This document shows positions 22,890 through 52,255 of a stretch of DNA of 64,000 bases, piece by piece. The stretch is from Desulfovibrionaceae bacterium. GTDB taxonomy: Bacteria; Desulfobacterota; Desulfovibrionia; Desulfovibrionales; Desulfovibrionaceae. The number at the start of each line of letters is the position of its first letter. Within the stretch, counting starts at the first letter, position 1. Made by a program: the position numbers and the translations under genes. The DNA is taken from positions 62,001 to 126,000 of the forward strand of contig JAQVCS010000008.1 of assembly GCA_028689675.1 (NCBI GenBank), given 5' to 3'. The notes under the pieces were generated by a model. That model saw only the letters and a program-made list of their open reading frames with translations. It was not told the origin of the DNA and ran no database searches.

Positions 22890-24167
22890 TTAATTTTCTT
22901 TACGCAGCATTTTTACGGCACAAAATTTGCCGCACATGGCGCAGACATCTTCTTTTTTGTGGGCTTCGCGGCGTTTTTCCACCATGGCGGGGTCAAGGGC
23001 GGCTTGTTTCATGCCTTCCCAATCCAAGGCCATGCGGGCTTTATTCATGGCTGCTTCACGGGCAAGGGCACGCTGTGTGCCCAGCGCCACCTCTCCAGCC
23101 TGTGCCGCCACGCGCGAAGCCATAACGCCAGCGCGCACGTCAGCCTCATCGGGCAGGGTCAAATGCTCAGCTGGGGTAAGGTAGCACAAGAAGTCCACAC
23201 CAGCCACCACGCCCAAAGCCCCGCCAATTGCCCCAGCAATATGGTCATAGCCTGCGGCGGTATCCACTGTTAGCGGCCCCAGCACATACAAGGGCGCGCC
23301 ATGCGTCAATTTTTTAATGCCCTTGATTTGCGCCTCTACCTGATTCAGCGCCACATGCCCAGGGCCTTCAATCATGCACTGCACCCCTGCGGCCAAAGCA
23401 TGCTGTGCCAAGCGCCCCAAGGTAATGACTTCTTCCCACTGGGCGGCATCGCCAGCGTCTACCCCTGCGCCGGGGCGCAAACCATCGCCCAGCGAAAGGG
23501 TAACATTATATTCGCGCGCAATGTCAAGCAAGCGGTCAAATTGTTCCAGCAAGGGGTTTTCTTTGTTGTTTTCGCGCATCCAGCGTGCCAGCAGCGCGCC
23601 GCCGCGAGACACAATGCCCAAGACGCGCCCGCCCTCAGCAGCCCAAGCAGCACCGCGCTGGGTGAGGCCGCAATGCACAGTCATAAAATCAACGCCTTGC
23701 CGTGCCTGTTTGGCAATTTCATCAAACAGGGCATCGGGGTTCAGCTCTTCAATGGGCTTGTCGGCATCAAGCAGCACTTGTGCGGCAGAATACATGGGTA
23801 CAGTGCCCACGGGCAGGGGGCATTGACGCAGCATATTTTGGCGCAAGGCGTCAAGGTCGCCGGCAATAGACAAATCCATAACCGTATGCGCCCCACTTTC
23901 TATGGCGGCCTGCAATTTTTTGGCTTCGGTCGTGGGGCAATTGCACAGGGGAGAGGTGCCAAGATTGGCATTGATTTTAATGCTGGCAGGCTGCCCCACC
24001 AGTATGGGGCGCACATTGGCGTGGGCGGGGTTGCCCAAAAGAACCATAGTGCCCGCGTTGAGGGCTTCACAAATGCTGTCTAAAGGCAGGCCTTCGGCCT
24101 GAGCAAGGCTTGCGCCGTACTGCTCTACCAAAGAGCGCAGGGCGGCGTTTTTTTCCAACAAACTCAT
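22890..24167 (-). CDS. thiC: Phosphomethylpyrimidine synthase ThiC (short form)
   Basis: This 425-residue radical-SAM enzyme converts 5-aminoimidazole ribotide to HMP-phosphate, the pyrimidine of thiamine. Conserved blocks include NANLGTSPLCNCP, TVHCGLTQRGAAW, SRGGALLARWM, CMIEGPGHVALNQVEAQ and TPAEHLTLPDEADVR. The C-terminal cluster motif reads CAMCGKFCAVKM, giving three cysteines for the 4Fe-4S cluster. At about 425 residues it is the compact form without the long N-terminal domain of E. coli ThiC (about 630). AGGA lies 8 bases upstream of the ATG. A TPP riboswitch and terminator precede it. Confidence 0.97.
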   Translation of the reverse strand: MSLLEKNAALRSLVEQYGASLAQAEGLPLDSICEALNAGTMVLLGNPAHANVRPILVGQPASIKINANLGTSPLCNCPTTEAKKLQAAIESGAHTVMDLSIAGDLDALRQNMLRQCPLPVGTVPMYSAAQVLLDADKPIEELNPDALFDEIAKQARQGVDFMTVHCGLTQRGAAWAAEGGRVLGIVSRGGALLARWMRENNKENPLLEQFDRLLDIAREYNVTLSLGDGLRPGAGVDAGDAAQWEEVITLGRLAQHALAAGVQCMIEGPGHVALNQVEAQIKGIKKLTHGAPLYVLGPLTVDTAAGYDHIAGAIGGALGVVAGVDFLCYLTPAEHLTLPDEADVRAGVMASRVAAQAGEVALGTQRALAREAAMNKARMALDWEGMKQAALDPAMVEKRREAHKKEDVCAMCGKFCAVKMLRKEN

Positions 24168-24204
24168 AGTACTATCCTCATGGTGGTTGAGGACGCAGTC
24201 GGGC

Positions 24205-24231
24205 AAAAAAGCCCGACCGTAGAGGCCGGGC
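24205..24231 (-). terminator. Riboswitch expression-platform terminator upstream of thiC
   Basis: Read on the minus strand, GCCCGGCC and GGTCGGGC flank a TCTAC loop and are followed by six T. It lies between the TPP aptamer and the thiC start. The arm GCCCGAC can alternatively pair with GTCGGGC at 24198-24204. Alternative pairing of this kind fits transcriptional attenuation when TPP is bound. Confidence 0.75.
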
Positions 24232-24246
24232 ACAAGTGCTTTTGTG

Positions 24247-24330
24247 GCTTCCCTACGGCAGCTTTAACCGCGTCAGGTTCAAAGGGTCTGGCACAATGCC
24301 ACTCTCAGCTTGGTATAAGCTCCCCTAGCG
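24247..24330 (-). promoter_or_regulatory. TPP riboswitch (THI element) controlling thiC
   Basis: On the minus strand the conserved order of the thiamine-pyrophosphate aptamer is present: AGGGGAGC, then CTGAGA, then GACCCTTTGAACCTGA, then GTTAAAGCTGCCGTAGGGAA. The short outer helix is closed by GGGGAGC and the final CTTCCC complement. It sits about 80-160 bases upstream of thiC, so pyrimidine synthesis is repressed when TPP is abundant. Confidence 0.97.
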
Positions 24331-24494
24331 CGTAAAAGCATAGACGCCGCCTTGTTTTTTGTAAAGTCTGAAAAAAGCAGAAAGGGAGAGAATAGGGCGG
24401 GCTGGCTTATTTACTCTTTTTCGTACATAGCGTACGGTTTCTGTGCAAAAGCGACTTTGTTTTTGCTCCCTTATTGTCTTGTTAGGAGGTTTGC

Positions 24495-25573: not shown

Positions 25574-25620
25574 TGTTCTTCCCCCCCCTTGCGCAAAAAT
25601 GCTGTTTCTTGCCTTAATAT

Positions 25621-25790
25621 CAGCCCCCATTAAAATATCTGCTGTAAAGCCGCCTTTTCCACGCTGGCTTCGTTGCACAAAAAAATATGCTTTCGACGTA
25701 GCGCAGTTAGGCCTTTGCCGCCCTTTTTTTTATGCATCAAATCAGCGTGAAGAAAATCAGCTTTTACCAGCGGTATTCTAGGGGCAGGTC
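25621..25790. repeat. Dispersed structured repeat, copy A
   Basis: This roughly 170-base stretch matches 49951-50101 in ordered blocks. It opens with CAGCCCCCATTAAA, then TCTGCTGT, then a variable GGCT-closed hairpin and GTTG, then TCGACGTAGCGC, a CCTTTT block, and finally ATCAGCTTTT with a C/G-rich end. It lies in the gap between a membrane-protein gene and tetR, with no coding capacity. The combination of constant blocks and a variable middle looks like a mobile or structured intergenic repeat. Confidence 0.7.
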
Positions 25791-25799
25791 TCATGTTAT

Positions 25800-26414
25800 T
25801 CAATTCTCTTTGCCCTGCTCCAGCGCAGTGCAGGCCTGCGCTGTAAAAAGTACGCGCAAAGCCTGTTGTATAATAACCTCGCCTTGCTCTCGTGAAGGCC
25901 CCATGCGCGCGAGCAATTTTAAAGCCCATATTTGTGCCTGTAAAAATAAAGCACCTTGTGCAGCAGGCAGGGCAGGGTTGCGGTCGGGGGCTTCTTCCAG
26001 CGCAGCTTGCAGGCGCTGCCGCAAGGCTACCATGGTGGCATTGATGCAGGGGGCAAACTCGGGGTTTTCCCCGTGGCATTCCAGCGCACTGTTTACTAAA
26101 AAACAGCCCTTGCCAGCAGCATCGTGCAGGCTGGCCTCAAGCATATGGTGCAGCAAGGCGTGTATTTGCTGTATGCCGGGCTGGTGTGCTCTGAGCAAAT
26201 CGTCCAGCTCGTGCATGGCCTCGTGGGCATACGCCTCCAGCGAGGCAAGCATCATGCCTTTTTTGCTGCCAAACAAGGCATACAGGCTGGGGGCTTTCAA
26301 GCCTGTGCGTTCTACCAATTCACTGATGGGGGTGGCTGCATAGCCCTGACGCCACAGGCAGTCTACCACGGTGCTCAGCACCTGCTGTTTATTATATATT
26401 GGTTGTCTTCCCAC
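25800..26414 (-). CDS. TetR/AcrR-family transcriptional repressor
   Basis: This 204-residue regulator has its N-terminal helix-turn-helix at about residues 10-55 (QVLSTVVDCLWRQGYAATPI, then ELVERTGLKAPSLYALFGSK). A helical ligand domain follows, with Cys103-like residues in GKGCFLVNSALECHGENPEF. This resembles NemR/ComR-type TetR proteins that sense reactive species by cysteine. It is divergent from the rhodanese/RclC-like operon, whose promoter carries an 18-base palindrome, so it probably represses that operon. The start is the only one giving the full TetR domain. Confidence 0.88.
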   Translation of the reverse strand: MGRQPIYNKQQVLSTVVDCLWRQGYAATPISELVERTGLKAPSLYALFGSKKGMMLASLEAYAHEAMHELDDLLRAHQPGIQQIHALLHHMLEASLHDAAGKGCFLVNSALECHGENPEFAPCINATMVALRQRLQAALEEAPDRNPALPAAQGALFLQAQIWALKLLARMGPSREQGEVIIQQALRVLFTAQACTALEQGKEN

Positions 26415-49889: not shown

Positions 49890-49950
49890 AGGGAGATTTT
49901 ACACAAAAGGTAATGAGTAAAAAAATAATCAGTTTTTATATAATTAGGCT

Positions 49951-50101
49951 CAGCCCTCATTAAATTGTCTGCTGTGCAGCCAGTTTTTCAAAACTGGCTG
50001 TGTTGTCGACGTAGCGCGGCTACCCCTTCACGTCCTTTTCTTTAGGCGCCTCAGCTTGAGGAAAAAATCAGTTTTTCGCGGGTAGCATTTTAACGAGGGT
50101 A
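49951..50101. repeat. Dispersed structured repeat, copy B
   Basis: This is homologous to copy A at 25621-25790. Shared blocks in the same order are CAGCCCTCATTAAA, TCTGCTGT, a variable hairpin (here AGCCAGTTTT with AAAACTGGCT), GTTG, TCGACGTAGCGC, a CCTTTT block, and ATCAGTTTTT near the end. Copy B lies between the IS5-like element and an IS256 fragment, so the repeat occurs in both core and island DNA. Confidence 0.7.
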
Positions 50102-50141
50102 GAATCTAGGTGCTTCTGCTAGGATCTTTGAACAAGGAGGC

Positions 50142-50363
50142 ATGGAAACATTGACATATTACGATTTCCCAGCACGCCATTGGCGACAACTGCGCACCAA
50201 TAACGGACTGGAACGCCTGAACAGGGAAATACGCCGCCGCACCCGCGTTGTAGGCAATTTTCCCAATAGTCACTCAGCACTGATGCTTGTTGCCGCAAGG
50301 CTCAGACACATGGCCACGAGTGACTGGGGCCTACGGCATTACATGAATATGGAACCGGTGTAA
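50142..50363 (+). pseudogene. IS256-family transposase, C-terminal fragment
   Basis: The 73 codons encode the end of a Mutator/IS256 transposase: ALTYYDFP-like ETLTYYDFPARHWRQL, then TNNGLERLNREIRRRTRVVG and FPNSHSALMLVAARL. TNxLERxNxxIRRRTRVVG holds the last catalytic Glu region of this family. In-frame codons continue upstream to about 50110 without the rest of the gene, so roughly 80 percent is missing. The right end with the CTGTCCAGCATTTTTCGCAC-like terminal sequence follows at about 50392-50420. Confidence 0.85.
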
Positions 50364-51008: not shown

Positions 51009-52204
51009 TTATATATAGTCAATGGGGGTAATGTAGACCTCTCTGTTCATGGGGATAAACTTATCTGCCATACAAATGACTGATCCTAGCCCGTATTTAT
51101 CCTTGCCTATCACAGAGAAGTTTTTAACCATTTTTTCTGTAGGTGTTCCTGTCTGCTTTATCTCCACTGGGTAGAGCTTCCCGTTTTGTTCAATAATCAG
51201 GTCTATTTCCTGCTGAAGAGCATTGCGGTAAAAATAGATATGTGGGCTTTGTCCATTATGGTAGTAGCTTTTGAGTATTTCGCTAACAACATAGGTTTCA
51301 AACAAAGCTCCGCTCATAGGAATACTCAAGGCTGCTTCACCAGAGCTTATGCCGCAAAGGTAACAGCATAAGCCAGTATCCATGAAATAGAACTTGGGGG
51401 TTTTTACTGCTCTCTGTCCTATATTATTGTAATATGGTTGTAGAATATAGATAAGCCCAGAAGTCTGGAGGATAGACATCCATGCTTTAATGGTCTTTGC
51501 AGTTTTTCCCACATCCCGTGCAATATCGTTGTAGTTAATAAGCTGCCCTGTTCTGCTGGCTATGACCTTTAAAAAGGTGATAAAGGCACTTTCATCAGAA
51601 ATATTCAAAATTTGCCGTACATCACGCTCTAGGTAGGTGCGGATATAGGAACTATAAAAAAGGTCTCTATCGGTAATACCGTCATGCACTTGGGGGTATG
51701 AACCCTGCACTATGGCATCAAAAATTTCCGTAATGGCACGCACAGGACGAGGTTCTGTGATAAAAGAAGGAAGATAGGGGGGGCGTGTTATATCTCTTTG
51801 TAATTCAGATATGGAAAAACCTTGCAAGTCCAGTATACCTACTCTTCCCGCTAAGCTTTCTGCTATATTCTGCATGAGTGAAAACTGCTGAGAACCCGAA
51901 AGCCATATAGACCCACGTTTTTCAGATTTATCCACCAGTAATTTTATATAAGGAAAGAGTTGCGGGGCGCGTTGTACCTCATCTATAAATACTGGGGGCT
52001 GATACATCTGGAAAAAGAGCTCTGGATCATTTTGAGCTAAAATGGCGGAGAAATATCATCGAGGCTAACGTAGGTGCGGTCTGATTCCATAATATGCTTG
52101 AGCAGAGTTGTCTTCCCTACCTGCCTAGGGCCTGTCACCATAAGAACCTTAAAAGACGCTGCACATTGTTTAGCTACTGCCGAGAGGGTACGTTCGTAGT
52201 ACAT
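51009..52204 (-). pseudogene. AAA_14/DUF4143 ATPase with one frameshift
   Basis: From ATG 52204 the frame gives MYYERTLSAVAKQCAASFKV and Walker A TGPRQVGKTTLLKH, then SLDDIS. A shift near 52045-52060 follows, where the original frame (AILAQNDPELFFQ) is recovered by changing one base. It continues to 51009 with Walker B FIDEVQRAP, SGSQQFSLM, and the DUF4143 part ending IDLIIEQNGKLYPVEIKQ. An intact member would have about 398 residues. These proteins are common, often mobile ATPases of uncertain function with an endonuclease-like EIK end. If the shift is real the product is split. A sequencing error cannot be excluded. Confidence 0.82.
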
Positions 52205-52255
52205 TACTGCCTCCGTATTTTTTAAAAGGATAGCAATTTTGTATTTTGAGGTCAA

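Follow-up and report, generated by a model that had tools for sequence, protein, structure and literature searches.

Correia elements (NEMIS/CREE) of Neisseria are intergenic MITEs with terminal inverted repeats and a TA target, and the repeat described here is likened to them by description only. ERIC sequences (RU-1/IRU, ~127 bp) are also intergenic, palindromic, MITE-like repeats with TA at their ends (PMC2759123). Geobacter uraniireducens carries a MITE of 178-235 bp termed Chunjie (cited in PMC10969869), while a 24-copy family built around the central palindrome GRCGTAGCGCTGCTACGCC has been listed for Geobacter metallireducens under the name 'predicted short RNA elements', and similar sequences have been reported for further species of Geobacter and for Desulfotalea (PMC2700814, Additional file 4, 2009). 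The window, i.e. the whole stretch of 64,000 nucleotides that was analysed, contains two copies of a repeat that is likely a ~180-bp non-coding palindromic MITE moved in trans by a transposase of the IS5 family (two-frame DDE type).

Copies in the window and their neighbourhood

The first-pass annotation had reported ordered sequence blocks recurring at ~25.6 and ~50 kb. This recurrence is real, with ends slightly wider than given there (25615-25793 and 49945-50108), and the exact block TCGACGTAGCGC and the opening CAGCCC(C/T)CATTAAA are present in both copies. The ordered blocks likewise exist, yet they correspond to the terminal repeat, the stems and the loops of a single palindrome, and what appeared as a variable middle is in copy B a deletion of ~20 bases from the core. 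The following features are concerned (both copies belonged to the training set of the covariance model R1, which scores them at 175 and 137 bits):

25615..25793, plus strand: copy A of the palindromic MITE (R1, 175 bits, E 3.7e-43), with degenerate ends and a recognisable core
25660..25742, plus strand: core hairpin of copy A, consisting of P1, internal loop 1, P2, internal loop 2 and the apical stem CGTAGC... (structural model R3, 18.5 bits, E 0.014 over 64 kb)
25800-26414, minus strand: TetR-type gene; copy A lies 6-7 bp beyond its stop codon
49047..49890, minus strand: IS5-family element beside copy B, two-frame transposase NF033580, terminal inverted repeat TAGATAGTGTCGTCAATT (17/18 complementary)
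49945..50108, plus strand: copy B (R1, 136.8 bits, E 2.3e-33), lacking ~20 core bases, right end ...AATCTA
49945..49964, plus strand: left terminal inverted repeat of copy B, TAGGCTCAGCCCTCATTAAA, an exact consensus by pattern match with 0 mismatches
50142..50363, plus strand: IS256-family transposase fragment downstream of copy B (NF033543, E 1.2e-16)

Both copies are old and have degenerated; in the window, the core of copy B goes undetected by R3. A terminator scan found none at copy A and a single site near chance level at copy B. Copy B is situated 54 bp from the IS5-family element and just upstream of the IS256 fragment. The transposase of this neighbouring IS5-family element is split over two overlapping frames and bordered by terminal inverted repeats of 18 bp; close relatives with the same ends are present in two other genomes (G056 and G101). 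As a mobiliser of the repeat it was rejected because its termini are unlike those of the repeat. Elsewhere in the window, a TPP riboswitch (RF00059, 67.9 bits) is located at 24233-24336 on the minus strand, directly upstream of thiC (22890-24233, minus strand). Two open reading frames on the minus strand (51009-52007 and 52037-52255, together spanning 51009-52255) resemble one ATPase gene split in two frames; the former gave no match to NCBIfam.

Copy number, ends and target site

When copy A was compared with the genome by BLASTN, six places were found, including itself and copy B, the latter at E=1e-5. A model built from eight copies retrieved ten from this genome, spread over six contigs, of which nine are strong (94-192 bits) and the tenth is weak (43 bits), and further copies of the kind predicted from the sequence thus exist, in core as well as in island DNA. 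The decayed tenth copy (G000:C20:108960-109182) is fused to a second palindrome (AAAAAGCGCCT...), possibly representing two nested hairpins. At the thresholds used, two congeneric genomes yielded no copies; the family is also present in related genera. The congeners lack the gene neighbouring the copy that was examined for an empty site. As had been noted from the open reading frames, the repeat is non-coding: no copy forms part of a conserved coding gene, and several adjoin gene stop codons.

Full-length copies measure 164-185 bp and are imperfect palindromes over nearly their entire length. One end reads TAGG(G/C)TCAGCCCTCATTAAA and the other is its complement, such that the outermost bases are TAGG...CCTA. 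With terminal inverted repeats of 18-20 bp (TAGGSTCAGSMCTCATTAAW), the short, non-coding elements have the make-up of MITEs. A pyrimidine precedes the TA at 48 of 52 well-defined ends (p ~7e-11 against one half), which identifies the target as YTAR, the target of IS5 (PMC10359306). TA is found at both ends, while the outer YTAR bases often differ between the two sides of single copies, so that a duplication can be claimed for TA alone. In 15 of 58 elements, the terminal TAG of the element itself serves as the stop codon of a gene, compared with 15% of the available non-coding YTAR sites (p=0.02; strict gene calls). This modest enrichment fits YTAR targeting combined with tolerance, and special targeting of stop codons is not needed.

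A candidate mobiliser of the IS5 family

A search of this genome for the termini led to an IS5-family element, G000:C12:139090-139926, that encodes a two-frame DDE transposase (NF033580) between terminal inverted repeats TAGGGTCAGGACTCATT (17/17 identical). Its terminal repeat TAGGGTCAGGACTCATTAAT is almost the one seen in the MITE: 16 of 20 terminal bases are the same as in the MITE consensus, and 19-20 of 20 for the copies in G021, which have TAGGGTCAGGACTCATTAA, almost exactly the IS terminus, at both ends. The element is the sole copy found in this genome of an IS with matching ends and has an apparent extra frameshift in its first open reading frame. Several related IS copies with TAGGYTCAGGACTCATTAAT reside in G056, and in one of these neither frame is disrupted beyond the usual shift. 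Genomes G021, G062, G044 and G101 contain MITEs, but no IS close to the resident IS5-type transposase was found in them. Since the MITE and the IS5-family element share the terminal 18-20 bp alone, the former is not a simple internal deletion of the latter. At two loci of G044 (L057 and L146), GGGTCTGTTAACACTATAG, which is like the end of another IS5-type element, abuts or replaces one end of the repeat; these junctions suggest nested insertions at YTAR sites.

We infer that a transposase of the resident IS5 type mobilises the repeat and that the repeat has moved in this lineage. Such a transposase would recognise the terminal repeats and direct insertion into YTAR, with TA then present at each end. 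If a stop codon of the form Y-TA-R served as insertion site, a TAG stop would be rebuilt because each end of the element reads TAG. Insertions at the 3' ends of genes, where many copies sit, could therefore be harmless.

The conserved core hairpin

A curated core alignment (A8) covers 22 sequences, drawn from this genome and from further Desulfovibrionales. In it, the core consists of a stem TGGC/GCCA, an internal loop with GCGTT opposite GCCTT, a variable stem (P2) and, beyond a second internal loop, the apical stem CGTA/TACG. Paired cells amount to 86% versus 65% in shuffled alignments, and compensatory cells to 105 versus 36 (at most 46 in slid controls), with changes on both sides at 16 of 21 core pairs. 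The columns of loop 1 are near-invariant and those of P2 are not; the apical stem is nearly invariant and thus says little on covariation. RNAalifold predicted no pairs on a 39-sequence alignment (A7), a failure that we ascribe to the alignment and not to the structure, since the latter is evident in A8.

The additional proposal that the repeat is a structured RNA family does not hold in the form in which it was made. Within the window element, no Rfam family was matched at E values up to 5, and elsewhere the search gave only microRNA-shaped chance matches and one sub-threshold match to PK-repBA (E 0.58); identity with an Rfam structured RNA was rejected as no curated covariance model matches. 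At paired positions of the written strand, G-U (G-T) does not exceed A-C (13 versus 18 in the core, 246 versus 286 in a separate count). The lack of a wobble excess disfavours an RNA gene on one strand; selection at the transcript level is compatible with the same counts because copies lie in both orientations, which masks a strand signal. As the structure is real and strongly covarying, the hairpin is likely to be under selection, be it as DNA or in RNA transcribed from either strand.

Spread through the phylum and differing ends

The core was found in at least 84 of 348 genomes of the class with a sequence-only model and in at least 104 of 395 genomes of the phylum, i.e. about a quarter, with R3, many of them reaching the maximum number of scored copies; both counts are lower bounds because strict filters scored just 9-11 candidates per genome. 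Copies in other genera have the inner part in common but not the ends, which are of the types TAGGSTCAGCCCTCATTAAA, GGGGCTGTYT..., TAGCAGCCTGTTGAAAAA, TGCCGAAATTATCC... and others. In one genus, the end TAGCAGCCTGTTGAAAAA is like the end TAGCTGCGTGTTGAAAAA of a resident repeated element in 16 of 18 positions. The putative transposase fragment of the TAGCTGCGTGTTGAAAAA-ended element matched no family, which renders this pairing weaker than the one with IS5. Judged by sequence likeness, at least two of the terminal-repeat types that accompany the core thus resemble resident insertion sequences, and we infer an exchange of ends between lineages. Near-identical cores with a terminus of the TGCCGAAATTATCC type are present in the three related genomes G063, G065 and G067 (loci L231-L234) in at least nine copies per genome, and these copies were probably active recently. 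Elements of relatives gave no blastn match to plasmids (two elements) or phages (one element), and the exact core pattern was not matched in viral contigs.

Because the module persists while the termini are swapped between lineages, the inner hairpin appears to be more than filler. Its persistence would most likely be explained if the hairpin with its near-invariant GCGTT/GCCTT loop were read, as folded DNA or as a transcript, by a protein of the host or of the element; recognition of the loop by a protein is speculative.

Alternative explanations

A strongly covarying hairpin and copies directly 3' of stop codons would also fit regulatory or small RNAs, or 3' UTR hairpins, that had multiplied as a family together with their genes. 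A proposal of this kind has been made for the G. metallireducens elements, whose published label points in the same direction (PMC2700814). We consider this origin unlikely here, because the terminal inverted repeats match an IS and the ends carry TA in YTAR, because one core occurs with differing termini, and because copies were not detected in the two congeners at the thresholds used; the wobble counts, the Rfam searches and the terminator scan at copy A speak against it as well. Single-strand transposition of the HUH type (REP/RAYT-like or IS200/IS605-like), in which the conserved hairpin is recognised and the IS-like ends are secondary, would agree with a core whose conserved internal loops persist throughout the phylum while the ends differ. 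Terminal inverted repeats with TA in YTAR are a signature of DDE transposases, the type also encoded by the resident element whose ends match, and such a mechanism is accordingly very improbable.

That a single coding gene lies decayed at both places in the window, or that an ordinary segment was duplicated, has practically no probability left: no supporting point was found, and the explanation is refuted by the copy set, in which non-coding copies with fixed termini lie between unrelated genes and stems change by compensation. What is well supported among the suggestions of the first-pass annotation is a genome-wide intergenic repeat that is a non-autonomous transposon remnant, given its terminal inverted repeats, its presence in core and island DNA, TA in YTAR and the nearly matching termini of a resident IS5-family element; the anatomy of the repeat is that of a MITE of the ERIC/Correia kind.

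Comparison with known repeats

In the usual view, a MITE is what decay has left of a single insertion sequence. In the present case, one hairpin core spans a phylum behind different IS ends, with its loop kept and its stems rewritten by compensation. It is conceivable, though we hold it to be somewhat less probable than its negation, that a mobile-hairpin superfamily extends throughout the phylum and perhaps wider, including ERIC, in which the core is the heritable unit, acquires the termini of resident DDE insertion sequences and is kept by a hairpin-reading protein. If true, ERIC-like repeats would be mobilised by whichever resident transposase shares their ends, and the question arises which factor recognises the conserved loop.

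The insertion sequences of the IS5 family (NF033580 group) correspond to the repeat in termini and YTAR target and are its probable mobilisers. Chunjie is similar in size and occurs in Geobacter; it was compared by description only (PMC10969869). The G. metallireducens family is intergenic like the repeat studied here, and its palindrome GRCGTAGCGCTGCTACGCC matches the apical part of the copies, CGACGTAGCGC.GCTACGCC, so that the apical palindrome looks like the same one on the sequence printed in that source. The family has been described as RNA elements, and the text devoted to it mentions neither terminal repeats nor an IS partner nor covariation across the structure (PMC2700814).

Internal loop 1 recurs in the ERIC consensus of E. 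coli (GC-TGCGTT-GG...CC-GCCTT-GC), whose apical loop is similar as well (TCAC-stem-GCTC; PMC2759123). Different termini (TATACCC...) and a shorter length set ERIC apart from the repeat with TAGGSTCAG... and ~164-185 bp. R3 aligned locally with E. coli ERIC at 11.8 bits (E 0.53, fourth best in 40 kb) and a strict loop descriptor with a background of 1 hit per 4 Mb matches the E. coli consensus, figures that are flattering because ERIC was reached via a text search for two short motifs. The same descriptor fits neither the published S. enterica ERIC variant nor the worn copies of the window. Kinship with ERIC is thus a lead, and common ancestry is suggestive and not proven. The repeat is best read as a MITE of the ERIC/Correia type with an unusual conserved core.
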